From NCBI RefSeq assembly GCF_029767755.1, contig NZ_JARUQS010000003.1, positions 1 to 44,838 of the forward strand: a stretch of DNA of 44,838 nucleotides. Reading direction: 5' to 3'. Within the stretch, counting starts at the first letter, position 1, and each line of letters opens with the position of its first letter. The notes beneath the pieces were generated by a model that had not been told where the DNA came from, searched no databases, and saw nothing but the letters and a program-made list of their open reading frames with translations. This document shows, piece by piece, positions 203-36,101 of this stretch. The translations under genes and the position numbers were made by a program. Source of the DNA: Thiomicrorhabdus sp. zzn3. GTDB lineage: Bacteria > Pseudomonadota > Gammaproteobacteria > Thiomicrospirales > Thiomicrospiraceae.

Positions 203-3200
203 TTATTCAGTTTCTTTATTATTCTTTTTCTCTTTAATAGAAGGCTTATCCCACGGCCCTGTCACGCTATAACGATAGGTAATTAAATCTTCATTAATAT
301 CCGGTATCACTTTCATGAGCGCGTAGATTGCTAAAGCTCCGAGCGGAGACGCCACACCTGTAATAGCGCTCAATGCGGGCAACGAACTACCAAGAGCAGG
401 TGTCACCTCTGCATTGAGGTCGAATTCCTTATTTTGTAGATCCACTCTACCAGACAAACCAACCGTTGCCGAAGGGGCCTGCAATTTAAATGACTCTAAC
501 CGCAAATCCCCGGCTTTCAGAACTGCTCTTCCCTGAATTACATCATAGACCATCCCCTTGGTGGTTACATCCTTTAAGTCCAGTGACAGGCGTCTTGCGA
601 CAGAAGTGACATTCAGCAAGCCTAAAAGACGTGCAAAACCTGGCTCCACATCCTCAACTACACCGTCCTTAATCTCAAAAATGGCTCGCCCAGTCAGGGC
701 TTTAACTCCGAAACACTCCGGCCCACCCGTCCAAGCTAGGTTAGCTTTCATTTGTGCTTTTTTCCCACTAAACCCCTGCTTCAAACCCAATAGTTTAGTC
801 AGACTTTTAACGTTACTGGATTCCAGCTCTAAGCGCGTACTACTTTGATTGGCAAATTTATGAAAAAAATACTCACCTTTTAGCTGCCCGGCTTTATTGG
901 CAAATTGCGCATTCAAATTTTTAAAGTGCAACACATCTTTACTCTCCTGCAAATTGAACGTCACCGCCTGCACATCCACTTTATTCAAATGGATATTTGA
1001 TCCCTGAAAATTTATTTCAGGCCACGGAATCTTAGACGCCTTGGCCAACTTGCATGAAACTTCTTCTGAGCCTCCTGAAACAGGCGTTTTGTCATCAACG
1101 TCGCCTCCTTGCCATACTAATGCCAGTTTATTCACCGCTACGTCTAGCTTTTTCTCATCGTAAAGACTGGCAACAAACTCAAGAAAGTTTGATTGACCAC
1201 GGATATCGACCCTTCTCTCATCAGTACTTTGCCAAACCAACTCCAGAATCGGGTACGCCTCTCCAAGCAAATTCACTTTATTAAATGTAAGCTTAGAACT
1301 ATCCCACAGCATGTCATCAACCCAATCAAAACCGAACAGGCCTGTTGATTCGTTATTTTCAGACACCTTTTTCTGCCAGTCAGTCCAGGCGTCCAGATCC
1401 AATTCAGCCACCTGACCTTGAACAGAAAAAACACCGGATTCCAGTTTAGGCATTGTTGCCGCCAACTGACCCCACAACAAATTGCCTGCTAACAACTCCA
1501 CTCTATCTCCAGCATCGGACAGCATAAGCTGGGCTTTCCCTATCCCATCAACTTCCCCCTCAACCAAGACACGCTCGTCTTTAACATCAAGCTGTAAAAG
1601 AATGCTCTTTGTCAGGCCTGCATTATCAAAAGGCGCCGGCATTTTCCAGTTCGCATGACTCATATCCGCATTCACTTTGATCTGAACGCCGGTTTTTTCT
1701 GATTTGCGCATTGGAAGGCTCACCTGAGCCTGCCACTCAGCAGGACCGGAAACAATATCCGGATAGTCAGGTAGAGCCTTCCCCTCTCCCTTAATCAATA
1801 TCTGCTTATTCTTGAGATCCGTAGCCACGCGCAAGCGAGCAGAACCATCCTCAAACACCGCCTGAAGCAGATCACTTTTCACCGTTTTTTCAGTAAACTC
1901 GACACTTCCTTTAATATCATCGAATGTAAAGGCGTCATATAACAACAGATGATTTCCATTTAAATGTACTCTTCCCCTGACACGTTCAGTCTTTTGATCG
2001 TAGCCAGAAATCGGAATCCAAATCTCATCCAGGTCCACACTCAAGAAATCGCTTAAATTAAGCTTGGATTTATCCGCAATAAAGCCTTCTAGTGACACCT
2101 TGCTTGGCAAAGGAGTATTTAAAAGATAATCCAATACAAAATCACTTTCCCCTGCTGCTTTAGCCTTCACACGAACAGCAATGTCTTTTTTATTAAGATC
2201 ATCAATTAATACATCCACTGCAGTGGCGTTGACCCCTGAATTGAGAGAAATCGCATCACTGTTAATTTGCAACCGATAAGGCGAAAAAGTCAGTTTGGCA
2301 TCAAAGCCTTTTAAGGCCGGCCACTCTGGCTGAAATTTCAACTGTGCATTTTTAACCGTCAATTCTCCACCAAAACGCGCCCCATGCGTATCGGACAAAG
2401 AAATCTTATTTACATTGCCATCGAAAAAAAAATCCCCTTGAATGGAATCGCCGTCAACCAAAGCCGTTTTTAACCATGTTTGAAGCTTTTGCGACATTAA
2501 GGAATACGGCAAATACTGCTTAACCTTCGCCATACTCCCAGGTTTCACAGACAAGTTGGCATCGACATACCCATCAAAATCCCCAACAGCCCTTAACGTC
2601 AAAGGAATACCATCCCAATCCAGACTGATAGGATTCAGCTGCCAGACATTACTGGCAGGTTTATAAAGCCCATGAATCCGGTTAGACAACTGCACCCTCA
2701 TCGGAATCGGATGTACACGAGATTCCATCAGCCAAATCGGCTTATCCGCGATCAACTGAAACTGTTCCCCTTTTTTATCGAGGTACACTTTCTCCATGGC
2801 TAAACCGGGGAGATGGGTTACTGGAACAGCAAGCTTATCGATTTTCATGGAAAGTGAATTCATTTCCAAAGTTTCAATATCTAGTTCGCCCACAATATTC
2901 TGTAACGATAATTCCACCGCAGAACTAAACAAATCCGCCACACTTTCATAGCGCAAAACAGAATGCACCATATTCTTGAATGGCTCGATATTGAACTGCG
3001 TGGTTTCAAAATGAAGATTGCGATTTTTTGCCAGAGCAAGCTCTATAGGCGAAACCGTCTGTATATAGTGATTGTCGATCTGCATTTCGCGTACAGCAAA
3101 ACGCCAGTTTAACTGCGATTCGTCACGCAACTGTTCCTGATTTTGCCACTCTAAATTCACCCCAAACGTCTCAGGTAACACAGCTTGCTTATCCGGCCAC

Positions 3201-4018
3201 TTCAGTGCTTGCGCATATAAGTTCAAACTTAAGTTGGATAACCAGGTATCTGACAGCTCTCCTTTGGCCTCAAGCGTCAACTCGCCACGAGGAAGAACCT
3301 GCAGCCACTTATGAGGCAAAAGCTGAGCTAAATTCTGAATTTTAAGAGGATTAAACGAGTGGAGGGTAAACTCACCGTCTTCAATCCCTCCCCATACATT
3401 GGGTTGAAGCGACGCTTTCAATTGAAATGTTTCGTTTTGCAGTACACCCGCATAAGAAAATTCAAATTCCGAAGCCAAACTCCAATGCGCCCCTTTAAAG
3501 GCCTGAAAGGTGTTCACATAAACCTGTAATGGATAACCTCGACTGTAGGTAGAGAGTTGCAGATCCTGAACATCAACCCGTCGCCATAGGCGGCTGAGAC
3601 TGATCTCTTTAAGCTGTTGTCTTAACGCCTGAAGCTCAATTGCAGGTTTATTTTCAGGAACTTGTTCAGGCGTACTGAAATCCAAAAATCTTAAATGCCG
3701 AATTTCAAGAAAATCACCCCAACTGGTGTTAGGGATCAAAGGGGAAAAGAGATTAACATCGACACTGAAATGGCTTGCTTCCAGTGCCATCTTAGGATGG
3801 GTTACTTTCAAATCATCAAGATAAAGCGTCACCCCAAGCCAGTTTTGTTCAATGGTCAAATCTTTAAATTCAACCTCACTTCCAGTGACCGCGGCAATCA
3901 CGCCACCAAACTGGCTTGGAGCAACTTGAGCCCATGTAATCACCAAGCGGACAACCAACAGGTAAGCCACCAACAAAGCAAACAGCCAGTAAAGTAATTT
4001 ATTCGTTCTTTGAACCAT
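203..4018 (-). CDS. yhdP: YhdP family AsmA-like phospholipid-transport protein
   Basis: A very long protein (1271 aa), close to the length of E. coli YhdP. A single membrane anchor lies at about residues 8-29 (LLYWLFALLVAYLLVV). The rest is beta-rich and repetitive, as in AsmA-like bridge proteins, and the C-terminal part carries the typical VGLSGRVDLQNKEFDL stretch. YhdP, TamB and YdbH are known to act redundantly in moving phospholipids from the inner to the outer membrane, so a periplasm-spanning role is inferred. It is the last gene of maf-rng-yhdP, the same order as in E. coli, 54 bp after rng. The start is the ATG at 4016-4018. Two CAGGCCTG palindromes lie inside it. The stop is 18 bp before the -35 box of a strong leftward promoter. 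Confidence 0.9.
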   Translation of the reverse strand: MVQRTNKLLYWLFALLVAYLLVVRLVITWAQVAPSQFGGVIAAVTGSEVEFKDLTIEQNWLGVTLYLDDLKVTHPKMALEASHFSVDVNLFSPLIPNTSWGDFLEIRHLRFLDFSTPEQVPENKPAIELQALRQQLKEISLSRLWRRVDVQDLQLSTYSRGYPLQVYVNTFQAFKGAHWSLASEFEFSYAGVLQNETFQLKASLQPNVWGGIEDGEFTLHSFNPLKIQNLAQLLPHKWLQVLPRGELTLEAKGELSDTWLSNLSLNLYAQALKWPDKQAVLPETFGVNLEWQNQEQLRDESQLNWRFAVREMQIDNHYIQTVSPIELALAKNRNLHFETTQFNIEPFKNMVHSVLRYESVADLFSSAVELSLQNIVGELDIETLEMNSLSMKIDKLAVPVTHLPGLAMEKVYLDKKGEQFQLIADKPIWLMESRVHPIPMRVQLSNRIHGLYKPASNVWQLNPISLDWDGIPLTLRAVGDFDGYVDANLSVKPGSMAKVKQYLPYSLMSQKLQTWLKTALVDGDSIQGDFFFDGNVNKISLSDTHGARFGGELTVKNAQLKFQPEWPALKGFDAKLTFSPYRLQINSDAISLNSGVNATAVDVLIDDLNKKDIAVRVKAKAAGESDFVLDYLLNTPLPSKVSLEGFIADKSKLNLSDFLSVDLDEIWIPISGYDQKTERVRGRVHLNGNHLLLYDAFTFDDIKGSVEFTEKTVKSDLLQAVFEDGSARLRVATDLKNKQILIKGEGKALPDYPDIVSGPAEWQAQVSLPMRKSEKTGVQIKVNADMSHANWKMPAPFDNAGLTKSILLQLDVKDERVLVEGEVDGIGKAQLMLSDAGDRVELLAGNLLWGQLAATMPKLESGVFSVQGQVAELDLDAWTDWQKKVSENNESTGLFGFDWVDDMLWDSSKLTFNKVNLLGEAYPILELVWQSTDERRVDIRGQSNFLEFVASLYDEKKLDVAVNKLALVWQGGDVDDKTPVSGGSEEVSCKLAKASKIPWPEINFQGSNIHLNKVDVQAVTFNLQESKDVLHFKNLNAQFANKAGQLKGEYFFHKFANQSSTRLELESSNVKSLTKLLGLKQGFSGKKAQMKANLAWTGGPECFGVKALTGRAIFEIKDGVVEDVEPGFARLLGLLNVTSVARRLSLDLKDVTTKGMVYDVIQGRAVLKAGDLRLESFKLQAPSATVGLSGRVDLQNKEFDLNAEVTPALGSSLPALSAITGVASPLGALAIYALMKVIPDINEDLITYRYSVTGPWDKPSIKEKKNNKETE
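1333..1348. repeat. CAGGCCTG palindrome, copy 1
   Basis: CGAACAGGCCTGTTGA inside yhdP. On the coding strand it is read as the frame giving S-T-G-L-F. Confidence 0.7.
1609..1624. repeat. CAGGCCTG palindrome, copy 2 (core only)
   Basis: TTGTCAGGCCTGCATT inside yhdP. Only the 8-bp core is symmetrical; the outer arms do not match. Confidence 0.5.
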
Positions 4019-6259: not shown

Positions 6260-6682
6260 ATGAAAAACACCTTAGACATTATCTTAACGGATCACTCTCG
6301 ACAACAGCTTGAAGAAACCTTTGACGCGGTTTATCTGTTTGACCACCCGCTTTTCTCCCTAATGGCTGAAAGAACCCAGCTTCCCTGGTTCTTAATTGTG
6401 CCCAAACAATCATTGGATGCCGAAAAAAATCCGGGCTATGCGGCACAGCTTTACGGCGAAATTTATCGCTTGATCGGCTTTATGCAAAAAAACAGCCTCG
6501 GCAACCATTTCAACCTGGCTAAGATTGGCAATAAAAACCCCTACCTGCATATCCACCTAATTTTTAGAGAAGAGAACGATGAAGTGTGGCCCGACGCGGT
6601 CTGGTGCCATGAGCCTTTGAACGCTTGTGAAGAAACGCCGCTTAAATTTAAACAGGCGTTAGCGGAATTCTTTGCAAACTGA
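6260..6682 (+). CDS. HIT-like domain protein
   Basis: 140-aa protein of the HIT superfamily. The histidine-triad region reads LHIHLIFR with H97 and H99; the third histidine of the canonical HxHxH pattern is replaced by isoleucine. The N-terminal half has the family features FDAVYLFDHPLFSLM and PWFLIVPKQ. Canonical HIT proteins cleave nucleotide phosphoramidates or act as nucleotidyl hydrolases through the middle histidine. This subgroup is common in gammaproteobacteria, but its substrate is not known to me. It stands alone on the plus strand. Its TGA stop is the first three bases of a palindrome shared with the stop of the convergent oxidase gene. Confidence 0.8.
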   Translation: MKNTLDIILTDHSRQQLEETFDAVYLFDHPLFSLMAERTQLPWFLIVPKQSLDAEKNPGYAAQLYGEIYRLIGFMQKNSLGNHFNLAKIGNKNPYLHIHLIFREENDEVWPDAVWCHEPLNACEETPLKFKQALAEFFAN

Positions 6683-6695
6683 GCAGGCCTGTTCA
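6680..6695. repeat. CAGGCCTG palindrome, copy 3, at a convergent junction
   Basis: TGAGCAGGCCTGTTCA. The left TGA is the stop codon of the HIT-like gene and the right TCA is the reverse-strand TGA stop of the oxidase gene. The palindrome is the entire intergenic region and no U-tract follows it. Confidence 0.85.
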
Positions 6696-9527
6696 GTGTT
6701 TGACTTGACCGTGTAAAAACCGGTCCAGCACTTGAGCAATATGCATGGCTTGAATCTGGCCTAAATCGGCAATCTGATGCCGGCAACTGGTACCGGTGGC
6801 CACGATCCAATCATCCGGTGATGCCTGCTGCACAGCTGGCAGCAACACCTGATTGGCGATGGTTTTGGAAACCTCATAATGCTTATAACCGAACTCGCCG
6901 GACATACCGCAGCAACCGGACGGAATCATCTCCACACTTAAGCCCGGCAACGCTTGCAACGCCTGCAAGGTATCCGCCGGTTTGGCCAAGGCTTTTTGGT
7001 GACAGTGCACATGCAGCCAAACTCGTTGATTGATTGGCGCCAATTCTTGCAATCGAACCGATTGCGACCATTCCAACATTAGCTCTTCCACACTTAATAC
7101 GGCATCACACCAGGCCTGTTGAGTTTTTGCGGAAGCGTTTGCCAATAAATCTTTCGCTTCATCACGCCAAACCAACAGCTCGGAAGGCTCGATACCGACG
7201 ATTTTGTCTCCTGCTTGCCACCCACGCAGTGCATGCATTGTCTGTAACAAGGCTTCCCGCGCTTCCGGCAACAGGCCTTTGCTGATCAACGCGCGCGGCG
7301 ATGCCCGCATCCACACCGGCTCCACATTAAAACCGGCACGCTGTGCCAGAGTTTGCAGGCTGCGCAACGCCGCCTGACCGACTTGCGGTTCCTGATACTG
7401 ACTGAACAGATCGCATAACACCCACAATGTCGGCAGCGAGTCATTATCAGGTTTGTTCTGGGTTTGCCCCTGCCACCAGGCTTGCAGATCAAAGGCGTGC
7501 GCTTGCGGCAAGGTACGGCGGCTGTCCACCCCCATGAGTTTTTTCGCAATGCCCAGATCTTGCACTCGGTTAAACAGCACCGGAAAACGCTGTCCCATTT
7601 TCAACAGGCCTGCATAGTGTTTTAACGCCCAAGCGCTCAAATCCAACCAGCGTCGCGTTTGATACAGCACCTCCGCCTTTAAACGTGCCATATCCACATT
7701 GGCCGGACATTCGCTTTTGCATCCCTTGCACCCCAGACACAGTTCCAAAGCGTCCTGCAACTGATGCTGTTTTAACGCTTTGCGCGGATCGGGCTCGGTC
7801 AGGGCGTAGCGCAGCAGGTTACTGCGCCCGCGGGTAGAGTAGTTTTCCTCACGCGTCGCCTGATAAGATGGACACATCAGGCCGGCCGATTTGCGGCACG
7901 CCGCCGCGCCGTTGCATTTTTCCACAGCGTCCATCAGCGAAAGGTCTTTTGACCAGTCAAAGGCCGTAGCCAACCTTTTTTGCGGCTGGCGATCCGCACG
8001 CAGATTTTGGGTAATCGGCGCATCGCCAATAATTACCCCCGGATTGAGCAAATTCTGCGGATCAAAGGCGCGCTTGAGTTCCTGAAGATAGAGATAGACG
8101 GTCTCGCCGACCTGCTCCTGCAAAAACGGCGCGCGCAATCGGCCGTCACCATGCTCACCGGACAAAGCACCGCGATATTTTTTCACCAGCTTAGAATTAC
8201 GCTCAGCAATCGTTTGAAATAGCTGTTTGCCCTCCTTAGTCGCCAGATCAAGTTCAGGACGGATATGAATCAGACCGACCGAAGCATGGCCATAATAGAC
8301 ACAACCCACCTTCAACTCCGCCATCAAGGCCTGCACATCCTGAAAATAATCAACCAAGCGATGCACCGGAACGGCCGCGTCTTCGATGACCGCCACCGCC
8401 TTTTTGCGCGTCACCTTGCCCATCAGCATGCCAAGGCCCGCTTTGCGTACCTCCCACACTTTGGCGGAATTGGCCGGTTCGATCAAAGGCGCAGCGTAAG
8501 CTCCGTGCGCCAACAACCAGGCCTGTTGAGTTTGCAAACGCGACTGCAAGCGCGCTTCATCATCATCAAACAGCTCGATCACCAAGACGGCTTGCGGATC
8601 GCCGTCAATCCAAAAACGGTTTTGCTGTTGCTGCAAATTGGCTTTGGTACCATCCAGTGTGGGCTTATCGATCAACTCAATCGCTGCCGGCTCGAACTCC
8701 AGCAGGTGCGGCACCACCTGCATCGCCGCTTCCACCGAATCAAAGTGCGCACACATCAACTGGCGGCATTTCGGCAGTTCCACCAGATTTAGGCAAGCCT
8801 GCTTAATCACAGCCAGCGTGCCTTCGCTGCCGCAGATCAGCGGCGCCAAATTAAAGGGTTTACCATGCGGGTTAAACGGCCGATGATGCCGATAGAGTTC
8901 GTCCAGCGCATAACCGGTGTTGCGGCGCTTGATGGTTGGATGCGGAAAATGGTCCAGAATGGCTTTGCCGTGATTTTCCAGCAAATGCAGAACGGTGCGG
9001 TAGATCTGCCCTTCAAAATTGGTCGCGTGACGCTTTTGCTCCAATTCTTCAGCGGATAAGGGACCAAAACGCGCTTCGGAACCGTCGGCAAGGATCACAT
9101 CCACCCACTTGACGTGCTCGCGCGTCGTGCCGTAATAGACCGAATAGGAACCGCAGGAATTGTTACCGATCATACCGCCGATCATGGCGCGGTTGGAAGT
9201 GGAAGTGTCCGGCGCAAAACGCAAACCGTCGGCTTTGACAAAGGCGTTCAAATCATCCTGAATCACCCCCGGCTCCACCACCACTTCTTTGAACTCGGGA
9301 CGGTATTCGACAATGTTAGTCAGGTGTTTGGAAACATCAATCACCACGCCCGAACCGATCGCCTGCCCCGCCAGAGAGGTACCGCCGGCACGTAGTATAA
9401 TCGGCAATTTATTTCTCAATGCCGATTGAACAGCCTCAACAAGCCTGTTTTGCGTTTCTGGCATTTCCACTTTTTTGAGCGTCAGCTCAAAAACGGATGC
9501 ATCACTGATCAGTCGATTCAAGGTCAC
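6693..9527 (-). CDS. FAD-linked oxidase fused to Fe-S/CCG domain (YdiJ/D-lactate dehydrogenase-like)
   Basis: 944-aa fusion protein. The N-terminal FAD-binding type 4 domain has RAGGTSLAGQAIG at about residues 44-56 and MIGGMIGNNSCGSYS further on. The FAD-oxidase C-terminal domain follows, with GEHGDGRLRAPF. A ferredoxin segment CLGCKGCKSECP lies at about 597-608, and a C-terminal CCG domain ends with GCCGMSGEFGYKHYEVS near residue 870. This architecture is shared by glycolate-oxidase and D-lactate or D-2-hydroxyglutarate dehydrogenase fusions such as YdiJ; the substrate cannot be told from sequence. The start is GTG at 9525-9527, because a TAG codon lies directly upstream in frame. It follows the epimerase gene by 25 bp and may share its transcript. 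Three palindromes lie inside it. Confidence 0.85.
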   Translation of the reverse strand: MTLNRLISDASVFELTLKKVEMPETQNRLVEAVQSALRNKLPIILRAGGTSLAGQAIGSGVVIDVSKHLTNIVEYRPEFKEVVVEPGVIQDDLNAFVKADGLRFAPDTSTSNRAMIGGMIGNNSCGSYSVYYGTTREHVKWVDVILADGSEARFGPLSAEELEQKRHATNFEGQIYRTVLHLLENHGKAILDHFPHPTIKRRNTGYALDELYRHHRPFNPHGKPFNLAPLICGSEGTLAVIKQACLNLVELPKCRQLMCAHFDSVEAAMQVVPHLLEFEPAAIELIDKPTLDGTKANLQQQQNRFWIDGDPQAVLVIELFDDDEARLQSRLQTQQAWLLAHGAYAAPLIEPANSAKVWEVRKAGLGMLMGKVTRKKAVAVIEDAAVPVHRLVDYFQDVQALMAELKVGCVYYGHASVGLIHIRPELDLATKEGKQLFQTIAERNSKLVKKYRGALSGEHGDGRLRAPFLQEQVGETVYLYLQELKRAFDPQNLLNPGVIIGDAPITQNLRADRQPQKRLATAFDWSKDLSLMDAVEKCNGAAACRKSAGLMCPSYQATREENYSTRGRSNLLRYALTEPDPRKALKQHQLQDALELCLGCKGCKSECPANVDMARLKAEVLYQTRRWLDLSAWALKHYAGLLKMGQRFPVLFNRVQDLGIAKKLMGVDSRRTLPQAHAFDLQAWWQGQTQNKPDNDSLPTLWVLCDLFSQYQEPQVGQAALRSLQTLAQRAGFNVEPVWMRASPRALISKGLLPEAREALLQTMHALRGWQAGDKIVGIEPSELLVWRDEAKDLLANASAKTQQAWCDAVLSVEELMLEWSQSVRLQELAPINQRVWLHVHCHQKALAKPADTLQALQALPGLSVEMIPSGCCGMSGEFGYKHYEVSKTIANQVLLPAVQQASPDDWIVATGTSCRHQIADLGQIQAMHIAQVLDRFLHGQVKH
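7107..7122. repeat. CAGGCCTG palindrome, copy 4
   Basis: ACACCAGGCCTGTTGA in the oxidase gene, read on the coding strand as T-Q-Q-A-W. Confidence 0.6.
7601..7616. repeat. CAGGCCTG palindrome, copy 5
   Basis: TCAACAGGCCTGCATA in the oxidase gene, read as Y-A-G-L-L-K, a different frame from copies 4 and 6 in the same gene. Confidence 0.6.
8514..8529. repeat. CAGGCCTG palindrome, copy 6
   Basis: CAACCAGGCCTGTTGA in the oxidase gene, again read as T-Q-Q-A-W. Confidence 0.65.
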
Positions 9528-22605: not shown

Positions 22606-22815
22606 TTAGTGGGCAGAATGATCCGGATCCCAATCCTTTAAAACATATTCCGCACCGCAGTAAGGACACTTCGCTTTGCCGGTCTCTTCAATCGGCAAAT
22701 AAACGCGCGGGTGCGAGTTCCACACACTCATTTCCGGGGTCGGACAATGCAAAGGCAGGTCGGCGTAGGTCACTTCGCAGTGCTTTTCTGAGTTGGTTCT
22801 GTTTTGTTCGCTCAT
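22606..22815 (-). CDS. CHCC-type zinc-finger protein
   Basis: 69-aa protein with the four probable zinc ligands C24, H35, C50 and C53 (HCPTPEMSVWNSHPRVYLPI, then KCPYCGAEY). This is the zf-CHCC pattern, related to the mitochondrial complex I subunit NDUFS6. The bacterial role is not established. The ATG has AAGGAGAA about 7 bp upstream. It follows ilvE, a pairing seen in other gammaproteobacteria, and probably shares its transcript. The shared bidirectional terminator lies beyond its stop. Confidence 0.88.
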   Translation of the reverse strand: MSEQNRTNSEKHCEVTYADLPLHCPTPEMSVWNSHPRVYLPIEETGKAKCPYCGAEYVLKDWDPDHSAH

Positions 22816-22838
22816 CTCATTCTCCTTTATTCAGCGAC

Positions 22839-26346: not shown

Positions 26347-26366
26347 ACTGAGCAGGCCTGCTCAGT
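26347..26366. repeat. CAGGCCTG palindrome, copy 13, perfect 20-bp form at a convergent junction
   Basis: ACTGAGCAGGCCTGCTCAGT is perfectly symmetrical over 20 bp, the longest copy in the window. It lies between the terminator and the stop of the lipoprotein gene. Confidence 0.85.
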
Positions 26367-26377
26367 TGAAATTCCAA

Positions 26378-28219
26378 TTAATTAATTGGATCGGTAATGG
26401 TTACCGCATTAAACACATCCACACCACCAACTGCAGTACTCACCTTAACTTCCAAAGCACCGGTTGCAGCTTCTGCGTTATCACCCGCCGATGTCAGAGT
26501 GAAGTTAAATTCAAGGTGACCCGTAGTGTTCGGAATTGCAGAATAGGGAATGGTAGACAATTCACCAACATCACTATTAACAGAAATCGATGCCCCTGTT
26601 GGGGCTGATTGTCTGACGGCTACAATACAAGCAGCATCTTCTGGATCAACCACTCCAACAACACGATCACCGCCCGCAGTTAAACATTTGGCCGCAGTGT
26701 CTTCCACCATTACCCATAAGTTTTTAACATCAGTCCCTGCTGCAAAATCAGTGACAATATTACATTGACCGCCGCCGCCAACAGAAAGTTTTCCATTCGT
26801 ATCCAAACAGCTTGTATTTGTACCGTTTAATTCATAAAGATGAACCTTGGGTGCACTTGACGCCATAATAATCACACCGCTGTCACGCACATTCGTCAAG
26901 AAGTTAGAACGATCTGCAATATTATTCGCATCCGTCGGACAGTCCGTTGTGTGCTCACACGGCACCCCGTTATAAACACCATCTGCTGCTGTATAGGCCT
27001 CATCCTCATCATAATCAATAAGCTTCTCGTCCGCACTAAAACCATTGTTTGATGCAGGGTTATAACTGCCCGTTTCATCATCATCACGGAAAGCTTCACC
27101 GAGGTCATCAAACACATCACCGTCATCAAATACGCCATTCGCATTGTAGTCATAAAAAGTTTCATGGCCAATCGCATAAGCCATTACGGTTGAACGATGG
27201 TCAGCTGGCCTTGGCTCTTGGCTCGTCCAAACAACCGAACAGACACTATCAGAAGTTTGACAACTCGACTCAATCAAGCCGCCTTCAGTAGTAAAATTAA
27301 TCACGGTTCCATCTGGCACAGGATTGTTGAACCGATCCCCTACACGGACAGTCACATTCACTGTTTCACCATCATGCCCCCAGCCTTCCGGTGCAAACCT
27401 ATCCATCGACAGACTAATACTGTTTTGATCAGGAATGCCTGTCGTCACGGTTAAGAGATCGGATTGCACATAAATCAACTGACCATCCGACAAGGTGACG
27501 GAAGCCCCGACTCTCACCGGCGTAGAAATCGTCCCGGCCTGAACAGTAGTCGTAACAATTCCGGAAGAATTTGAGCTTGCACTGGACGGGGTCAAAGACA
27601 AACCTCCCACCGTCGTTGAAAGGGTAAAATTAACTGTTGCCCCTTCAATAGGGGACCCGTATATATCCACCACTTTAAAGCTGACTTGTGAAGTTTCACC
27701 ATAGCCTACACCACCAGTACCCTTTAAAGACATAAACTCGGGGTCAGCAGAAATAAACTGAATGGAACCGGCTGAGGAAGTGTTGGCACCATCATCACTG
27801 ATCGTAGCGGCAAACTGATAATTTAATGTCGAATTATCACCATCATAAGCAGAAGAACTCGCGGTAAGCGTACCCGGCGCGGTTCCGGAATCGATATCCG
27901 GGGCATAAATGGTAATGGAAGCTCGCCCTGTATGATCAGTTAACACCGAAGTTTGCGAAAGCGTCCCGGAGGTGGCGGACAGGTTGACGATTTCATTTTC
28001 AACCGGCATCATGCCCTCATCCAGAAAAACAATATCCACTTTCGCATTATCATTTGCCGGAATTGTCGTGGTCGACTCACCCGTTGAAGAGATCGACATG
28101 GCTAGATTGATTCCCGGTTCATAAAACTGAGCGTCGGCGTTCTCTCCACCGGCACTGCCCCCGCACCCTGATAATATCAGGAGCGAACTCAGCCCTAACC
28201 ATCCTAACAGCTTACCCAT
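26378..28219 (-). CDS. Ig-like (Big_1/invasin-type) domain lipoprotein
   Basis: 613-aa exported lipoprotein. The signal peptide GKLLGWLGLSSLLILSGC ends in an LSGC lipobox. At least two bacterial Ig-like repeats are visible (VDIVFLDEGMMPVENEIVNL and VSFKVVDIYGSPIEGATVNF, each followed by the TDHTGRASITIYAP or SNSSGIVTTTVQAG edge strands). A third starts at VNVTVRVGDRFNNPVPDGTV. A strongly acidic stretch from about residue 356 (DYNANGVFDDGDVFDD and following) looks like calcium-binding loops. The ATG at 28217-28219 has GGAGG upstream, inside the end of recR. Function is unknown; adhesion or surface scaffolding is inferred from Big_1 homologues. Confidence 0.75.
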   Translation of the reverse strand: MGKLLGWLGLSSLLILSGCGGSAGGENADAQFYEPGINLAMSISSTGESTTTIPANDNAKVDIVFLDEGMMPVENEIVNLSATSGTLSQTSVLTDHTGRASITIYAPDIDSGTAPGTLTASSSAYDGDNSTLNYQFAATISDDGANTSSAGSIQFISADPEFMSLKGTGGVGYGETSQVSFKVVDIYGSPIEGATVNFTLSTTVGGLSLTPSSASSNSSGIVTTTVQAGTISTPVRVGASVTLSDGQLIYVQSDLLTVTTGIPDQNSISLSMDRFAPEGWGHDGETVNVTVRVGDRFNNPVPDGTVINFTTEGGLIESSCQTSDSVCSVVWTSQEPRPADHRSTVMAYAIGHETFYDYNANGVFDDGDVFDDLGEAFRDDDETGSYNPASNNGFSADEKLIDYDEDEAYTAADGVYNGVPCEHTTDCPTDANNIADRSNFLTNVRDSGVIIMASSAPKVHLYELNGTNTSCLDTNGKLSVGGGGQCNIVTDFAAGTDVKNLWVMVEDTAAKCLTAGGDRVVGVVDPEDAACIVAVRQSAPTGASISVNSDVGELSTIPYSAIPNTTGHLEFNFTLTSAGDNAEAATGALEVKVSTAVGGVDVFNAVTITDPIN

Positions 28220-28223
28220 CGGT

Positions 28224-28817
28224 CTATACCTCCTTTCTGGAGATGAACGCCTGCGACAAGGTCCCAGAGTCGATATACTCAAGCTCACCACCAATCGGTA
28301 TTCCCTGAGCCAAGCGTGTCACCTTGATATTGTGCTCTTTTGCCAACTGTTGAATGTAGTGTGCGGTAGCTTCACCCTCAACAGTTGGGTTGGTAGCTAT
28401 AATCAATTCTACCACCCCTTTTGCGGATAAACGAGTCTCCAGTTGATCCAATCCAAGCTCCTGAGGCCCGATGCCGTCAATTGGTGACAAGTGTCCCATC
28501 AAAACAAAGTATTTACCACGGAAAATGCCGGACTGTTCAATGGCCATCATATCAGAAGGAGATTCAACGATGCATAGCTCATCACCATGTCGCGAAGAAG
28601 AGGCGCAAATAGTACAGATAGACTCTTCAGTAAAAGTTCGGCACTGCTCGCAGTGCTGCACTTTAGCAACGGCCTCTCCAATGGCATGAGCCAATTGTTC
28701 TCCTCCACTTCGATTATGCTCAAGCAAGTGGAACGCCATGCGTTGAGCCGATTTCACCCCCACTCCAGGCAAAACACGTAGCGCTTCAATCAGCTCAGAA
28801 ATAAGAGGGCTATACAT
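28224..28817 (-). CDS. recR: Recombination mediator protein RecR
   Basis: 197 aa, standard length. The N-terminal helix-hairpin-helix [20 protein letters not shown] is followed by the zinc finger [16 protein letters not shown]. The Toprim domain starts near [17 protein letters not shown] and includes [16 protein letters not shown]. RecR works with RecF and RecO to load RecA on SSB-coated gaps. The order dnaX-ybaB-recR is the common bacterial arrangement. Its stop lies 4 bp before the lipoprotein start. Confidence 0.97.
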
Positions 28818-29297: not shown

Positions 29298-31625
29298 TTA
29301 TTGAGCCAACGGCGCAACCGTACTCGGAATCACTTCCAAGCCAAGCTCTTGCTTAAAGGCGGCAACCAACGGATCCTGTTGAATGGACACTTCAGCGGCT
29401 TGCTGGCGCGCCTCTGATTGCCGTTGTTCATGTTTTGCCGGCGTATCATATTCCAGACCTTGCTTCAGACCATCAATAAAACACAATTCAACCGGTACCC
29501 CAAGTGCAGCTTGCACACTCTGCTGCAAACGCTCTACCGCCTTATCCGTTTTGGCAAAGATCTGCTGAGGATCGACACTCAAAGACCAGGCCTGTTGAGA
29601 ATATTCAACCAAAACGCACTGTCTTGCCAACTCCGCCGCCATCCCTTCAGGCTGAATCTGTTCTAATAACGCCAACCAAACCTGCAATCTATTCTCATTG
29701 GTTAACGGCTGATAATCGATCTGCAGCGCAGTGGAAGATGCATTCACCCGACTGTCGGAAGACGCTTGCGACGTATCGCTTTCAGCCGCTTCTGTTGGCA
29801 GGAGTTCCAATACCGAACCTTGCTCTGCATTCGGTACGGCCAAGCCTTCATTCATAAAAACTCCGGATGACGGAGTAGCGGCTGGTTCAGGTTGAACCGG
29901 TTCCGAAAAAGATTGATTAAGCGTAACCGATTCACTCTCTTGCCACGCAGGAGAAGGCGTCGCTTTAAGCTCTGCTGTTTGCGCTAACAATGAATCAGCA
30001 GCGGGCTCTACAGACTGCTGCGTCGATAACGGCTGTTCAATGATTGTCTGAGGCTTTCCCAGCGGCTGTTTCAACCTCTCGCGTATCTGCGCCAAGTGAT
30101 CACTTCCCCCAGGAGGTTGTGATTCGTGGCCTGGAGATAAAGGGGCGGCTGGAGCGGCTGGAGCGGCTGAAGCCACCGAATCATGAGCATTATCCCATGG
30201 TGGCGAATCACTTGAGGTACTTGCACTAGCGGGCAGTGAAGAGCTTTTCGTTTGCTGAGATGCAAGCTCGAGTGCCATCGACGCATCTGATTGCAAGCTA
30301 GGATCCGCGTTCAGCTGCGATTCAACGTGCATTGCTTGCACAGGAGTGACTGATTGTTCAGCAGTATGATTTCCCTGCTCAGTAGGACTTGCAATGTCAT
30401 TATCACGGCTTTTGCCCATTAGTGCTCTTGCGGATGAAAGCCCCGCTAAAACCTCCTGAGGATTTAAACCTTCGGAAGCTTCCTCCTGTTCTGAACTCGT
30501 GTCATTAACACTAATATCAGGAGAAACCACTGTTCCTGACGCTACTGGCTCAAACGCCAGCATACGCAATAATGTCATTTCAAAACCGATGCGAATATCC
30601 GGTGCCAACAGCATATCCTGGCGGGCCTGCAATGCAATTTGATACAGCAGCTGTACGCGTTCCGGTGACAATTGCTGACTTAAAGCCCGCAAGACCTCAG
30701 CAGGCAGCGCACTGCCTTCTTCAATCGACCCTAAAATCTGATTGAACGCCAAAGCATGTAAGGTCTCAATCAGCTGTGACAGCAGGGCTGAATAATCGAC
30801 CCCCATTAAAGCCAACTGTTGAATAACTTCTTTAACCGCTTGCGGCGACTCTTCCGCCAGGGCTTGCAAAATGGCCACAGTATACTGCTGATCCACCAAG
30901 CCAAGCATGGTCTGCACCGCTTCAAACTCGATATTGCCTCCACCGTAGGCAATCGCCTGATCCAACAAACTCAAAGAATCGCGCGCCGACCCGTCTGCAC
31001 TTTTAGCAATCAAGGCCAAAGCGGCGGGATCATAAAGCAGGTTTTCTTGCTGCAAAATGTGTTCTAGGTGAGCCTGAATCTGCAGTTGCGTCAACCGCAT
31101 CAGATTAAACTGCAAACAGCGGGACAAGACCGTAATCGGCAATTTATGCGGATCGGTAGTAGCCAACAGAAATTTGACGTGCTCCGGCGGCTCTTCCAAT
31201 GTTTTAAGCAGCGCATTAAAACTGCTTTTGGAGAGCATGTGGACTTCATCGATCAGATAAACTTTGTAACGCCCCTGAGTCGGGGCGAACTGCACGTTAT
31301 CCAAAATCTCACGCGTATCATCCACCTTGGTGCGGGATGCCGCATCCACTTCAATCAGATCAATAAAGCGCCCTTCATCAATTGCGCGACAATTTTCGCA
31401 TACACCGCACGGGGTCGAACTCACCCCCTGCTGGCAGTTCAATGCTTTGGCAAAAATACGTGCAATCGTGGTCTTACCGACCCCTCGAGTACCCGTAAAC
31501 AAATAGGCATGATGCAGACGATTTTGATCTAACGCATTAGATAAAGCCTGCATAACATGGCTTTGCCCAACCAGTTCCGAAAAGTTTTTTGGACGCCATT
31601 TTCTGGCGAGTACGGTATAACTCAT
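29298..31625 (-). CDS. dnaX: DNA polymerase III subunit tau/gamma
   Basis: 775-aa clamp-loader ATPase. The ATG at 31623-31625 gives the conserved start MSYTVLARKWRPKNFSELVG; an upstream in-frame start would add 13 residues not seen in the family. Walker A GTRGVGKT is at 45-52, a zinc module follows (CGVCENCRAID), then the DEVHMLS box and the sensor region. The middle is low-complexity (S, Q, A and P rich, with an Ala-Ala-Pro run). The C-terminal domain (about 630-775) resembles tau domain V. No A6G-type slippery heptamer was found at a position that would make a gamma form. Confidence 0.95.
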   Translation of the reverse strand: MSYTVLARKWRPKNFSELVGQSHVMQALSNALDQNRLHHAYLFTGTRGVGKTTIARIFAKALNCQQGVSSTPCGVCENCRAIDEGRFIDLIEVDAASRTKVDDTREILDNVQFAPTQGRYKVYLIDEVHMLSKSSFNALLKTLEEPPEHVKFLLATTDPHKLPITVLSRCLQFNLMRLTQLQIQAHLEHILQQENLLYDPAALALIAKSADGSARDSLSLLDQAIAYGGGNIEFEAVQTMLGLVDQQYTVAILQALAEESPQAVKEVIQQLALMGVDYSALLSQLIETLHALAFNQILGSIEEGSALPAEVLRALSQQLSPERVQLLYQIALQARQDMLLAPDIRIGFEMTLLRMLAFEPVASGTVVSPDISVNDTSSEQEEASEGLNPQEVLAGLSSARALMGKSRDNDIASPTEQGNHTAEQSVTPVQAMHVESQLNADPSLQSDASMALELASQQTKSSSLPASASTSSDSPPWDNAHDSVASAAPAAPAAPLSPGHESQPPGGSDHLAQIRERLKQPLGKPQTIIEQPLSTQQSVEPAADSLLAQTAELKATPSPAWQESESVTLNQSFSEPVQPEPAATPSSGVFMNEGLAVPNAEQGSVLELLPTEAAESDTSQASSDSRVNASSTALQIDYQPLTNENRLQVWLALLEQIQPEGMAAELARQCVLVEYSQQAWSLSVDPQQIFAKTDKAVERLQQSVQAALGVPVELCFIDGLKQGLEYDTPAKHEQRQSEARQQAAEVSIQQDPLVAAFKQELGLEVIPSTVAPLAQ
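29583..29598. repeat. CAGGCCTG palindrome, copy 14
   Basis: AGACCAGGCCTGTTGA in the dnaX 3' part, read as S-Q-Q-A-W-S. Confidence 0.6.
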
Positions 31626-31761
31626 AAAGGATCGATTCACCTCGTCTCGGCGCAAAATCGCCAAGCCTTACGAACACAAAAATAGTCAACGAATGAATGT
31701 TATTTTAACGTGATTCAATCGAAATAAGAGAGAAGATTGTCAGAAAATTCGTTCCCAAAAC

Positions 31762-31777
31762 TCAACAGGCCTGGTCA
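31762..31777. repeat. CAGGCCTG palindrome, copy 15, between SRP RNA and dnaX
   Basis: TCAACAGGCCTGGTCA lies in the spacer between the SRP RNA 3' end and the dnaX start, outside genes. Confidence 0.75.
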
Positions 31778-32224: not shown

Positions 32225-33571
32225 TTAAACTTCTTGCCAGCCGCCCCAGAACCACCAGCCTTTGTATTGCATCTTTTGCATTTCACAATTCAAGCCCTCG
32301 TATGAGCGCTCCCAATCCAGCCACGGGCCAAAGAAAAAAGCCAACATGCGTTCAAAAAAGTTTAGCGACATTGAATCTCTTCGTTGGATATCCAGACAGC
32401 TTTCAAAGCGAGTTGTGCCACTATCGTTGTATGAAAGGCAGCTTTGAACAGAGGTTTCGCCGCTATTAGAAACGCAGGTTCCTTCATAGCCAATATAAAC
32501 TGCGTCGGAAAAAAACACCTGTTCTTTCGGGGACCAAAAAGAACCGCCACTTGCATCTGAACAGGCCTGAGCAGAGCTGCAACACGAGTTATCTTCGCAT
32601 CTGTATTGAGAGCGATCATCTAGATAAGAATTGTCATAATCCAACGCAACCGAAGCGTTGTCCTCACCATAGATTGTTCTCCCCCCAGAAGGCATACAAA
32701 AGCACGCACTGCTCGATTTATTCAGTTCGTCCTCACCATCAACCACTTCTACAGGTTTGTGATTGAGAACATCATTAAAAACATCCATATCCGAATAGCT
32801 TGTTGTAAAAAAAGAAAACGAATCCCCCGAGTTGACAGGCTTCCCGATCCAAGGATTATTGAATTCTGCGTAAGGATACTTAGTCACTCCTGGGGCTTTT
32901 GCACTGGTCCAGCCATAACGACAATATTTTTCTCGGGCTTGCGAATTCGCAACACTGACGTCCGACGCCGCAACGCCTAATGCAGACAAATCGGCTTCTG
33001 TAAGCTCTGCACTTAAGCAGCTGGCATAACGGTTTTTACAATAGCAGCCAGAATCTGCATTTTGTTCATCTACCGACAGCCCTAATAGAGCTTTTCCTTG
33101 TGGCGTAAACACACCTAAAAAAGAGTCACCACTAACCAATTGAACAGCCACTGCACTGAAGTCAGGAGGCGCTTGCCCATCAGCAACATCTCTTGGCGTC
33201 GAAGCGTTAGCGGTTAGTGCTACAAACTGTCCATTTTCATCAAAATTACCAAAGGTGATGTATTTATCCAGATTGTAATTATTGCCTTCGGCATCCAGAT
33301 ACAACCCCACCTGATTAAGCATCAAATCGATCTGAGAACGGGCCTCAGCCTTCTCGGCATCCGACATGTTCACAGTCAATGCTAGCTCTGTTCTTAACGC
33401 CATATAGGCAGCGGTTTTCGCGTAGTTATCCAGCTGGCGATCCAGCAGTTTAGCATTACCGAATTCGACCACTAAATTGAACGTGTATAATGACAACGCA
33501 ATAGAGGCCGCCCCCAGTAAGGAAATCGCCCCTTTCTGATTACGCAGCAGGCTGTGTTGTAAAAAAGCCAC
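32225..33571 (-). CDS. TadG-like pilus assembly protein, cysteine-rich
   Basis: 448 aa. The N-terminus (LLRNQKGAISLLGAASIALS) has the polar-glycine-hydrophobic arrangement of TadG/TadE-like proteins with one membrane helix. It lacks the glutamate at +5 after the glycine that marks processed pilins. The periplasmic part is unusually cysteine-rich (CYCKNRYASC, CFCMPSGG, CEDNSCCSSAQAC). The C-terminus is aromatic (KGWWFWGGWQEV). The start is GTG at 33569-33571, with TGGAGG 6 bp upstream and one base after the tadD stop. It is the last gene of the Tad operon. Disulfide formation or metal binding is inferred, not shown. Confidence 0.65.
   Translation of the reverse strand: MAFLQHSLLRNQKGAISLLGAASIALSLYTFNLVVEFGNAKLLDRQLDNYAKTAAYMALRTELALTVNMSDAEKAEARSQIDLMLNQVGLYLDAEGNNYNLDKYITFGNFDENGQFVALTANASTPRDVADGQAPPDFSAVAVQLVSGDSFLGVFTPQGKALLGLSVDEQNADSGCYCKNRYASCLSAELTEADLSALGVAASDVSVANSQAREKYCRYGWTSAKAPGVTKYPYAEFNNPWIGKPVNSGDSFSFFTTSYSDMDVFNDVLNHKPVEVVDGEDELNKSSSACFCMPSGGRTIYGEDNASVALDYDNSYLDDRSQYRCEDNSCCSSAQACSDASGGSFWSPKEQVFFSDAVYIGYEGTCVSNSGETSVQSCLSYNDSGTTRFESCLDIQRRDSMSLNFFERMLAFFFGPWLDWERSYEGLNCEMQKMQYKGWWFWGGWQEV
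32558..32573. repeat. CAGGCCTG palindrome, copy 16
   Basis: TGAACAGGCCTGAGCA in the tadG-like gene, read as A-Q-A-C-S; here the motif contributes one of the cysteines. Confidence 0.7.
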
Positions 33572-33572
33572 C

Positions 33573-34226
33573 TTAAACCTCCAGATTTTGCAACAGCTTA
33601 AGGTTATTCGACGCCTTACTGTTCAACGGATCTTGTTGTAACGCCTGTTCAAAAAAGCGTTTTGCACCCATAAAATCCTTTTGTAACAAGGCACTGAAGC
33701 CTAAATTATTCAACGCACTGACCTGCGTAGTTACATCGGAACGGGCAAGCCATGACTGATAAATCCGCTCCGCTTCTTGATAATGCTCCATAATCAAAGC
33801 CAGCCTAGCTAATTCCGACTCATCGCTCAATGAATGTCCAGAAATCTTATTGGCTTCTCGCCACGCGACCAAGGCACGATCCAGCTTCTTCTGACCTTCA
33901 TACACTTTAGCCAATAGGCGGTAAACTCGCAGATCGTTGCTGCGTTCCCGGCGTAACTTCTGCAATAACGGTTCGGCCTGAGCATAGCGCTGGTGCTCCA
34001 CCTGAAATCGCGCTAAATCCAACGCAAATTCATACTCTTCCTGCTCTCCTAACTCCGTTGCCAGAGGGGCCTCTTGCTTGGAGAATTTGGCGTAATCAAT
34101 CTGGCTTTGCACTTTAGTCGTGGCCGTGCTGCAGGCAGAAAGCAATAACACAAGTCCCAAAACACCTCCAATTCTGCAACCGTTCTTTATCCCACTTTTT
34201 AAACTCAACAGATCAAGCCTGCTCAT
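33573..34226 (-). CDS. tadD: TadD-like TPR lipoprotein
   Basis: 217 aa. The signal peptide ends in the lipobox LLLSAC. Tetratricopeptide repeats follow from about residue 60 (FALDLARFQVEHQRYAQAEP, LRVYRLLAKVYEGQKKLDRA, and the end LNNLGFSALLQKDFMGAKRF). TadD proteins are outer-membrane-associated lipoproteins required for Flp pilus secretion, probably as pilotins or scaffolds for the secretin. It lies between tadC and the tadG-like gene. Confidence 0.85.
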   Translation of the reverse strand: MSRLDLLSLKSGIKNGCRIGGVLGLVLLLSACSTATTKVQSQIDYAKFSKQEAPLATELGEQEEYEFALDLARFQVEHQRYAQAEPLLQKLRRERSNDLRVYRLLAKVYEGQKKLDRALVAWREANKISGHSLSDESELARLALIMEHYQEAERIYQSWLARSDVTTQVSALNNLGFSALLQKDFMGAKRFFEQALQQDPLNSKASNNLKLLQNLEV

Positions 34227-34254
34227 TTTTCAAATCCTATTTTTTCAATGCACA

Positions 34255-35154
34255 TCAGAATCCACGCCCCAGAGCGACCATTTTTTCACCCAGCAGCAAA
34301 ATCAGATACGGCACCATCAGAAACGGCATAATCACAATGGCCATTTTGGCGGAGGTTTTGGCCGCTTTTTCTTCCATTTTTTCTTCACGAATCTGGTACA
34401 TGCGGCGGGTAAACGCGGAAATGGCGTCACTGATCGAGCTACCCAACTTCTCATTTTGAATCAATACTTGAACCAGGCTTTGTATCTCCTGCGTAGGATT
34501 GCGTTCGGCAAACTGGCGCAACGCCTCAATTCTAGGCACTCCTAGCTGAATCTGATCCAACAGGTACTCAAACTCATAACACACTTCGGGGTGTATCTCT
34601 TTGAGCTCTTGGGCGACACGCTTAACCGCCACCAGATAACTTAACCCGGCATTCATACAGATATTGCACATATCCAGAAAATCCGGCAGGTGCTCACTGA
34701 TACGGTTTAAACGGCGCTGCCCCAAATAAATCAGGATTCGTTCCGGCGCCAAAAGCAAAATGATCGGCACGGCAATCGCTAAAACAGGAGAAATCGCCCA
34801 CCAGCTCCACAGTAAGGCCATTAACAGCGCCGAACCGAGCACTACTGCATATTTAATGAAAAAATAGGCGCCAATATGGCGCTCGTTGCGAAAACCGGCG
34901 CTGGCCAGCTGATGCTGTACCGTCGCGATCTCTTTGGCGCTTTTAGGCCCCAACGCCCGTCCCAGAGAGCACCACCAGCAGCCGTTGTAGTTTTTTTGCT
35001 GCTTAGCATAATCGTTAGCCAATCCGACACGCGCCTTAATACGCTCTTTCTGTAACTGGCCGGCCTGCATACTCAACACATGCTTTACCAACAAGAGTGT
35101 GATCACAAAACTGATCAAGGCAATAGCAGTCAGTAGCAACGGCAATGAATTCAT
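34255..35154 (-). CDS. tadC: Tad pilus inner-membrane platform protein TadC
   Basis: 299-aa T2SS-F domain protein with membrane segments at the N-terminus (LPLLLTAIALISFVITLLLV), in the middle (two around GSALLMALLWSWWAISPVLA) and at the C-terminus (MAIVIMPFLMVPYLILLLGE). The cytoplasmic GspF-like core contains HLPDFLDMCNICMNAGLSYL and LVQVLIQNEKLGSSISDAIS. TadB and TadC together form the platform that couples TadA to pilus assembly. It directly follows tadB. Confidence 0.93.
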   Translation of the reverse strand: MNSLPLLLTAIALISFVITLLLVKHVLSMQAGQLQKERIKARVGLANDYAKQQKNYNGCWWCSLGRALGPKSAKEIATVQHQLASAGFRNERHIGAYFFIKYAVVLGSALLMALLWSWWAISPVLAIAVPIILLLAPERILIYLGQRRLNRISEHLPDFLDMCNICMNAGLSYLVAVKRVAQELKEIHPEVCYEFEYLLDQIQLGVPRIEALRQFAERNPTQEIQSLVQVLIQNEKLGSSISDAISAFTRRMYQIREEKMEEKAAKTSAKMAIVIMPFLMVPYLILLLGEKMVALGRGF

Positions 35155-35156
35155 GC

Positions 35157-36101
35157 TTAAAACCTCATTTTCAACATCTGTTTGAGAATGATCGTTCCGG
35201 TGACAATTAGTACTAGCGAAATCACAAACAGTTTAAAACCAAGTGGGTCGTTCAAAAAGAAATCCATTGATTCACGGTCAAAGAAATATTTGTAGAGCAC
35301 ATACAGCACCGGGGCACCGCCAATAAACCAGGCGGTAAAACGCGATTCCGCGGTCAAGGTTTTCAGTTTCGCTTGAAAGTGCTCCCGGCGACGCATCAAC
35401 TTGGACAGTTCCGACAAAATCATCGACAACTGTCCGCCGGTTTCGCGCTGAATGATCAGCGTAATGACAAAAAATTGTGCTTCCGGCAAACTGACCCGAC
35501 GCTGAAACTCGCGCAGAATATCGCGCATACTGATCCCCAGGGTTAACTGTTTATTGACCTCTTTCATTTCCTGAGCCAGCGGTCCTTGCATGTCTTCGCC
35601 TACCGCCGCGATCGCGCCATCGATACCGTAGCCTGAATGTAACGACCGCACGATGGCGTCCAACATTTCCGGAAAATCCTTACGTAGCTGCGTCTGTCGC
35701 TGGTGAATCTTGATCAAAATATATGCCGTGGGCAGAAACGGAAGCATAATTAACAGCAGCACCATTTTGTCTGTCAGAACGGAGAATTTAAGCGCCGCTA
35801 TAAATACGCTAAAAAACAGCAGGCCTGCTTGAATCAACAGCACTTTTACAATGTCGCGCCGTTCGTGTATCCCGGCCTGTTTGAATTTGCCGCTCAACCA
35901 CATAAACCAGCGCTTTTCTTTCTGCTGCCCCCAGGCATCCTGCAACGTTTCCCGTTCACTATTAGGAAAGCCGATACGTTGCATTAAGGCATCTAACTGC
36001 TGTTTGCGCTCCAGTTCCCGCTTACGCGTCTGCGCTAATGCCAAAATTCCAAACGGCACAAAAATCGCCAGAGCCACTAATAAAAAAGCGGGATCCATCA
36101 A
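35157..36101 (-). CDS. tadB: Tad pilus inner-membrane platform protein TadB
   Basis: 314-aa T2SS-F domain protein, the partner of TadC. Membrane segments lie at residues 4-22, at about 90-135 ([18 protein letters not shown] and [17 protein letters not shown]) and at the C-terminus. The F-domain stretch [20 protein letters not shown] and [20 protein letters not shown] is conserved. It overlaps the tadA stop by 4 bp (ATGA). Confidence 0.93.
35816..35831. repeat. CAGGCCTG palindrome, copy 17
   Basis: ACAGCAGGCCTGCTTG in tadB, with a 10-bp symmetrical centre, read as Q-A-G-L-L. Confidence 0.55.

Follow-up and report, generated by a model that had tools for sequence, protein, structure and literature searches.

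An iterated palindromic octamer with dialects among relatives of Thiomicrorhabdus sp. zzn3 and its possible role as a DNA-uptake signal

Copies of the word in the window

The window (the whole 44,838-bp stretch analysed, contig NZ_JARUQS010000003.1 of the sulfur-oxidising bacterium Thiomicrorhabdus sp. zzn3) contained 17 copies of the palindromic octamer CAGGCCTG, compared to an average of 0.56 copies, and at most 3, across 100 dinucleotide shuffles. All 17 copies given in the initial annotation were confirmed, and the degenerate copies placed there near argD (24386) and rcpA (39801) were present as matches with three mismatches. The copies and the open reading frames (ORFs) around them were as follows, with sites of relatives given where the loci could be aligned:

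1337 to 1344, inside the YhdP-like ORF 203–4018 (minus strand); the sole window copy with AACAGGCCTGTT
1613 to 1620, inside the same YhdP-like ORF 203–4018 (minus strand)
6684 to 6691, between the convergent ends of ORF 6260–6682 (plus strand) and ORF 6693–9527 (minus strand); AACAGGCCGGGT in T. cannonii
7111 to 7118, in ORF 6693–9527 (minus strand); T. chilensis retains the core, T. cannonii has CCGGCCTG
7605 to 7612, in ORF 6693–9527 (minus strand); core kept in T. chilensis, not kept in T. cannonii
8518 to 8525, in ORF 6693–9527 (minus strand); kept in five relatives (L002, L015, L004, L005, and L014), CCGGCCTG in T. cannonii
12141 to 12148, in ORF 11778–12728 (minus strand); not conserved in T. 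chilensis
13275 to 13282, in ORF 12725–13813 (minus strand); core shared with T. chilensis and T. arctica
14720 to 14727, in ORF 13810–15003 (minus strand); not conserved in T. chilensis
17471 to 17478, near the 3′ end of the phosphoethanolamine-transferase-like ORF 17391–19067 (minus strand)
21613 to 21620, inside ORF 21423–22475 (plus strand), downstream of msbA
22582 to 22589, noncoding by the ORF calls, between ORF 21423–22475 (plus strand) and ORF 22602–23081 (plus strand)
26353 to 26360, at the convergent junction of the ornithine carbamoyltransferase ORF 25380–26285 (plus strand) and ORF 26378–28294 (minus strand); hairpin fold with z −3.66
29587 to 29594, in dnaX (29298–31664, minus strand)
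31766 to 31773, noncoding, between dnaX and the small signal recognition particle RNA gene
32562 to 32569, in ORF 32225–33571 (minus strand)
35820 to 35827, in the T2SSF-domain ORF 35157–36101 (minus strand) of the Tad pilus locus; the last window copy

The Tad pilus locus extended over 32225–41788 (RcpC, secretin, TadA-like ATPase, and T2SSF protein), and the window carried no CAGGCCTG beyond 35827.

Genome-wide abundance and consensus

The complete assembly of this genome (G000; 2,366,806 bases in six contigs) harbored 859 copies of CAGGCCTG and 21 copies of the reversed control word, and 327 kb of it gave 252 both-strand counts compared to 17.0 under a trinucleotide model, an approximately 15-fold excess; a count near Markov expectation, named in the initial annotation as refuting, was thus not observed. 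In the 374-kb G000 counts and the T. chilensis comparison given below, the 10 kb shared by L066 and L249 was counted once, and L078 (1,183 bases, all N) was left out.

The initial annotation had described most copies as dyads of 12 to 16 bp, and this was overstated: three of the 17 (1337, 26353, and 35820) were perfect dyads of at least 12 bp by eye, and the extension was a graded consensus. The 16-mer TSAACAGGCCTGTTSA had no exact copy in the window and represented a consensus only, and AACAGGCCTGTT was found in the window once (1335–1346). In viral contigs, the 16-mer was found in seven stretches, with a single site in each. The consensus of the 126 G000 sites with complete flanks (327 kb) was AAAYTSAR-CAGGCCTG-YTSARTTT, a graded 24-bp dyad longer than the 16-mer, and its flanks were stronger at noncoding than at coding sites (A at −1: 0.84 versus 0.64). 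Left and right flank scores were uncorrelated (r −0.02 over 144 G000 sites and −0.01 over 111 sites of relatives), and therefore each half contributed independently; likewise, a T-tract was present on both sides at 36 of the 144 sites (36.5 expected) and on neither side at 35 (35.5 expected).

Placement of the sites

By crude ORF calls over 374 kb of G000, 86 of 144 sites lay in genes and 58 lay outside genes or across a gene edge; in a 326-kb sample, 51 of 126 sites were noncoding or at an edge, with noncoding DNA making up 9.9% of bases. The 86 in-gene copies showed two preferred reading frames (44 and 35 copies; the former encoding Q-A-W or Q-A-C) and an avoided third one (seven copies). 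Outside genes, the sites displayed a marked preference for gene 3′ ends: (i) in G000, the density was 6.50 sites per kb at convergent junctions (18 of 32 occupied), 1.54 at tandem junctions (with 23 of the 31 sites closer to the end of the upstream gene), and 0.35 at divergent junctions (two of 33 occupied); (ii) in G020, which carried a different dialect of the word (see below), the corresponding values were 5.40, 1.14, and 0.59, with nine of 11 tandem sites near the upstream end; and (iii) in G023, which carried yet another dialect, the bias was weaker (4.19, 1.81, and 1.13, with 11 of 21 tandem sites near the upstream end). RNA folding of four close site pairs (z −8.6, −7.8, −2.6, and −6.5) and of two single dyads (z −8.0 and −3.7) surpassed the shuffle mean in all six stretches (z −2.6 to −8.6).

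Mobile DNA without sites was represented by two examples, one prophage and one island, rather than by a survey. The prophage part of G020 (L262, 340–7968) contained no dialect words, while the adjoining 9 kb contained seven; its phage genes (baseplate hub, tail fibre, and D12 methyltransferase; L262:340–9827) abutted a comEC frame of 592–594 aa, compared to 834–957 aa in 29 of 33 family genomes, and G020 comEC may be interrupted next to the phage genes. The island was in G000 contig 1, where a 15-kb gap without sites opened with a tRNA-Met gene, a tyrosine integrase gene, and DNA of 34–40% GC (L328:1671–9900). By eye, this L328 island preceded RuBisCO- and carboxysome-like genes.

Conservation in place and dialects among relatives

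The identity of the window RNase G to Thiomicrorhabdus loci was 79–94%. In T. chilensis (54 kb aligned, 74% identity), an identical core was found at 10 of 15 aligned G000 sites, compared to 16.7% of all 8-mers (a baseline of 0.167); conservation between sister species, on which the initial annotation had let its reading depend, was accordingly well above background. In T. cannonii, CAGGCCTG was kept at none of four aligned sites, and a CAGGCCGG word stood at that place in three of the four; at sites 7111 and 8518, the half adjoining TTGAGTTT was kept and the opposite half was altered. A 15.5-kb T. cannonii locus carried seven CAGGCCGG sites (four of them in the long ACTCAA form) and no CAGGCCTG.

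The word counts were made in 37 genomes of the family, together with 21 genomes of other families in the same class. The existence of word dialects among the family genomes is a new observation, and four groups were distinguished: (i) CAGGCCTG-rich (236–1173 copies) in 18 genomes (G000, G002, G005–G009, G014, G015, G017, G018, G021, G025, G027, G030, G033, G035, and G036); (ii) CAGGCCGG-rich in two, namely G020 (533 + 578 copies; control 43 + 40) and G004 (315 + 318; control 18 + 26; an inspected 1.1-kb G004 piece had a GC of 0.00); (iii) CCGGCCGG-rich in G023 (1217 copies; control 22); and (iv) none of the three words in great number in the remaining 16, several of which displayed a 2- to 5-fold excess of CCGGCCGG over control (55 versus 12 in G012 and 35 versus 14 in G024). 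In other families, CAGGCCTG reached at most 222 copies and at most about 7-fold over a non-zero control (108 versus 15 in G049; 10 versus 0 in G052). A possible fourth dialect was CAGGCCTT of Hydrogenovibrio sp. UBA650, with seven copies within 15.7 kb (L008).

GGCC was constant across CAGGCCTG, CAGGCCGG, and CCGGCCGG. Split into half-sites, the word reads CCTG+CCTG in the majority of species that bear one; T. cannonii, G020, and G004 have CCTG+CCGG, G023 has CCGG+CCGG, and UBA650 may have CCTG+CCTT. CAGGCCGG was non-palindromic and extended one way to AAAACTCAACAGGCCGGGTA; the noncoding consensus of G020 was AAAACTCAA-CAGGCCGG-GTA with a one-sided A tract (T at −3, 0.92; A at −1, 0.92; G at +1, 0.92; T at +2, 0.96; 25 sites). 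Among 56 in-gene CAGGCCGG sites of G020, 25 lay with the gene and 31 against it, and an RNA-level signal is therefore disfavoured. At G023 sites, a symmetric model was better than a hidden-orientation model by 54.3 log units.

The phylogeny was a single GspF protein tree that covered 17 family genomes out of 37, with long branches for G035, G036, and G023. CAGGCCTG spanned the outgroup genera through most of the genus, and a seven-genome clade (G010, G012, G013, G019, G023, G024, and G031; support 100/98) lacked it; CCGGCCGG-bearing G023 fell inside this clade, and G020 branched elsewhere. The CCGG arms of G020 and G023, on separate branches, were alike but not identical. The simplest reading is an ancestral CAGGCCTG followed by separate shifts to CAGGCCGG and CCGGCCGG, plus loss. 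No alternative dominant word was found in 80–120 kb each of the word-less G003, G010, G012, G013, G019, G024, and G031.

Uptake machinery and candidate receptors

ComEC was found in 33 of the 37 family genomes, with the G000 protein passing the ComEC/Rec2 cut-off, and PilT-family matches over cut-off were found in 32, with two adjacent genes in G000. The receptor of known uptake words is the minor pilin ComP in Neisseria, and ComN has been proposed in Pasteurellaceae (PMC12616744). Pilin-like candidates were as follows: (i) a solitary pilin beside a xerC-like gene (by eye) at L249:6958–7575 in G000 and L254:5155–5676 in T. chilensis (63% identity), with a highly conserved C-terminal half and strong orthologues in 10 of the 37 genomes; (ii) large proteins resembling minor pilins, in two paralogous sets, at L248 and L075 in G000, L199 in G023, and L191 in G003 (16 loci in nine genomes), both sets lying side by side and adjoining a MiaB-like gene in G003, while the compared G023 stretch showed only one; and (iii) a four-pilin cluster. 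The presence of set A did not separate word-bearing from word-less genomes, set A-like proteins being also found in word-less G003 and G024, and the four-pilin cluster was rejected as competence minor pilins, its size and neighbour order (GspF-like before, GspK- to GspN-like after) being those of type II secretion pseudopilins.

The uptake-signal reading

Judged from sequence comparison, CAGGCCTG may serve Thiomicrorhabdus and its family as a DNA-uptake signal, which a pilus together with ComEC would read; we give this reading slightly less than an even chance. Among the roles offered in the initial annotation (a methylation- or restriction-linked site, a nucleoid or segregation protein site, or an uptake signal), uptake fitted best, and that proposal as a whole was borne out in part. 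Uptake is favoured because the abundance, the dialects around GGCC with sites switched in place at conserved positions, the hairpins at gene 3′ ends, and the two site-free mobile regions (one prophage and one island) match uptake words best. Apart from this possible case, tags for the uptake of a cell's own kind of DNA have, to our knowledge, been described in two bacterial families only.

Several features were shared with the DNA uptake sequence (DUS) of Neisseriaceae and the uptake signal sequence (USS) of Pasteurellaceae: strong genome-wide over-representation of a short word; dialects among related genomes that leave an inner core unchanged (GGCC here), following the phylogeny as far as the tree covered it (17 of 37 genomes); and a noncoding excess combined with many in-gene copies and with paired copies forming hairpins. 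DUS and USS dialects likewise keep an inner core (PMC12616744; PMC3630211). Like DUS, the word was present hundreds to thousands of times per genome, had dialects that differed by clade around a fixed core, and included some hairpin-forming pairs; unlike DUS, it was a palindrome centred on GGCC in the majority of species that bear it, and it belonged to a different family, in which no ComP-like receptor was found. Like USS, it combined a core with A/T-rich flanks (one-sided in the CAGGCCGG dialect) and had a comparable in-gene share; unlike USS, whose cores AAGTGCGGT and ACAAGCGGT are not palindromic, the main word had independent flanks on two sides and no established even spacing. Uptake words lie in ORFs at 65% in Haemophilus influenzae and 35% in Neisseria gonorrhoeae, and about 10% of them form inverted repeats, most uptake words being without bias to positions downstream of genes (PMC1939737); the word studied here differed from them in its bias to gene 3′ ends.

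Under the uptake reading, a surface pilin would bind free DNA bearing the word, pilus retraction would draw this DNA in, and ComEC would pass one strand to the cytoplasm, where recombination would replace the resident copy, such that imperfect copies would slowly be converted to the full word by molecular drive. Copies would settle where they are least harmful, that is, in tolerated reading frames and directly after genes, the dyad there doubling as a terminator-like hairpin, and they would be kept away from promoters and from new mobile DNA. A shift in receptor preference would then shift the set of sites and yield the dialects CAGGCCTG, AAAACTCAACAGGCCGGGTA, ACCGGCCGGT, and perhaps CAGGCCTT. 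A more far-reaching version, which we consider rather doubtful, would make this a third, independently evolved family of uptake signals, found in the chemolithoautotrophic Thiomicrorhabdus and relatives and read as two half-sites that change singly, by a two-subunit or two-domain receptor, perhaps on a pilus of mannose-sensitive haemagglutinin (MSHA) type instead of the classical type IVa, and acting as a species barrier to recombination.

The uptake reading meets real difficulties: the word is a palindrome, its halves vary independently, even spacing is not established, and no receptor was found. Known DUS and USS are not palindromes (PMC1939737), and the G000 flanks behaved as two independent halves, unlike a directional uptake signal; a hidden-orientation model of the G000 sites gained 14.0 log units compared to −8.2 to 10.3 in five nulls. 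Even spacing is reported for uptake words. Here, spacing was analysed over the first 100 of the 859 G000 sites (95 after merging), and the gaps showed no significant evenness, with a coefficient of variation (CV) of 0.887 compared to 0.966 at random (P 0.21); leaving out the part after 230 kb (87 sites) gave a CV of 0.755 (P 0.008), an exclusion chosen after the gaps had been inspected, and even spacing was dropped as support since the lower P value depended on omitting this sparse stretch. The sparse stretch was itself only partly an island: at 246–279.5 kb of contig 1 (L329 and L330), four sites were found in 33.5 kb of ordinary GC, compared to about 12 expected. As to the machinery, ComEC was also present in 14 of the 16 word-less genomes, and G035 had 840 sites but no PilT-family match over cut-off. 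In favour of the reading, G035 harbored an MshL-like secretin; this and the PilB- and PilC-like proteins beside it each scored below the curated cut-off. PilP of classical type IVa pili was matched in none of the 37 family genomes, by a model that was also silent in all 14 control genomes. No receptor was found: the one candidate tested, the solitary pilin, failed as a general receptor, with strong orthologues in nine of 21 word-bearing genomes and also in word-less G003.

Alternative explanations

The word might instead mark sites of an intracellular dimeric DNA-binding protein (a nucleoid organiser, a gyrase- or condensin-associated protein, or a transcription-end factor), the dialects reflecting changes of that protein; this explanation, close to the nucleoid or segregation option of the initial annotation, we rate as unlikely and below uptake. 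The symmetric 24-bp consensus with independent halves suits a dimeric binder, as does the strong preference for convergent 3′ ends, where positive supercoils meet; however, 86 of 144 G000 sites lay in genes, three words were each dominant in some genome within one genus with CAGGCCGG being directional, and the word was lost in a clade of otherwise normal genomes. The same junctions and hairpins bear on genome-wide intrinsic terminators or repetitive extragenic palindrome (REP)-like mobile repeats, with a site in 18 of 32 convergent junctions and all six folded stretches at z −2.6 to −8.6. As a main role, these are disfavoured and very improbable, since REP elements, intergenic only and spread by insertion, are not matched by a word with 60% of its sites in genes (86 of 144), with a directional dialect in both orientations (25 with and 31 against, n = 56), and with copies that persist or are altered at the same aligned positions; the word may serve termination as a secondary function.

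Distinctly improbable, too, is an iterated palindrome of the highly iterated palindrome 1 (HIP1) type, which an orphan DNA methyltransferase, acting in concert with mismatch repair, would create and maintain. The likeness lies in a palindromic octamer with substitute words in relatives, as described by Elhai in cyanobacteria, where HIP1 and its substitutes were linked to word-specific methyltransferases and a GGCC-specific D12 methyltransferase was named in Anabaena (PMC4390886), and G000 itself had one PF01555 match, in a 1125-aa frame. Methyltransferases of PF00145 and PF01555 were nevertheless rejected as the driver, since their presence did not track the word across the 37 genomes: PF00145 was over cut-off in seven of 21 word-bearing and eight of 16 word-less genomes, not including G000 or G023, and PF01555 was over cut-off in six of 21 and four of 16, with no match in G014, G018, G020, G021, G023, or G025. 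Queried with one D12 protein, the compared loci, including 453 kb of G000, returned only the query itself, which is weak evidence. Furthermore, a palindromic word with palindrome-preserving extensions was found in G000 and G023 but not in G020 and G004, the CAGGCCGG word of these two genomes being non-palindromic and, in G020, extended on one side. By contrast, every HIP1 extension listed in PMC4390886 preserves the palindrome. The methylation or restriction option raised in the initial annotation was therefore weakened, the word differing from HIP1 and alternative HIPs in the lack of a shared PF00145 or PF01555 methyltransferase and in one non-palindromic, directional dialect, even though D12 (PF02086) and further adenine methyltransferases were not covered genome-wide; the word here also showed a strong 3′-end bias, a point on which HIP1 was not compared.

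If the uptake reading holds, a third family that has three or more complete dialects within a single genus, a word-losing clade, and non-pathogenic cultured species would permit tests of word origin, switching, and loss, together with direct tests of whether such words isolate species. If the word is not for uptake, some driver must still account for a genome-wide word that a single genus has replaced wholesale more than once. No uptake words for Hydrogenovibrio or Thiomicrospira and no natural transformation for Thiomicrorhabdus were found reported in the open-access literature, which does not prove their absence from print; among the matches listed there for CAGGCCTG as letters, none concerned these genera, and the palindrome mentioned for Thiomicrorhabdus in PMC6501319 concerns clustered regularly interspaced short palindromic repeats (CRISPR).

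Poly-C/poly-G runs in word-less genomes

Other word-less genomes were sampled thinly, at 20 kb each of G016, G026, and G029 and less than 10 kb each of G001, G011, G022, G028, G032, and G034. Poly-C/poly-G runs were very frequent in some of the word-less genomes (L050 of G016, L058 of G029, and L009–L012), and poly-C was the top word in G016 and G029: 20 kb of each genome gave 33 and 20 counts of CCCCCCCC, respectively, compared to about 0.4–0.6 expected (both strands, overlapping). These runs may represent tracts for phase variation, a further iterated signal, or an artefact of assembly.

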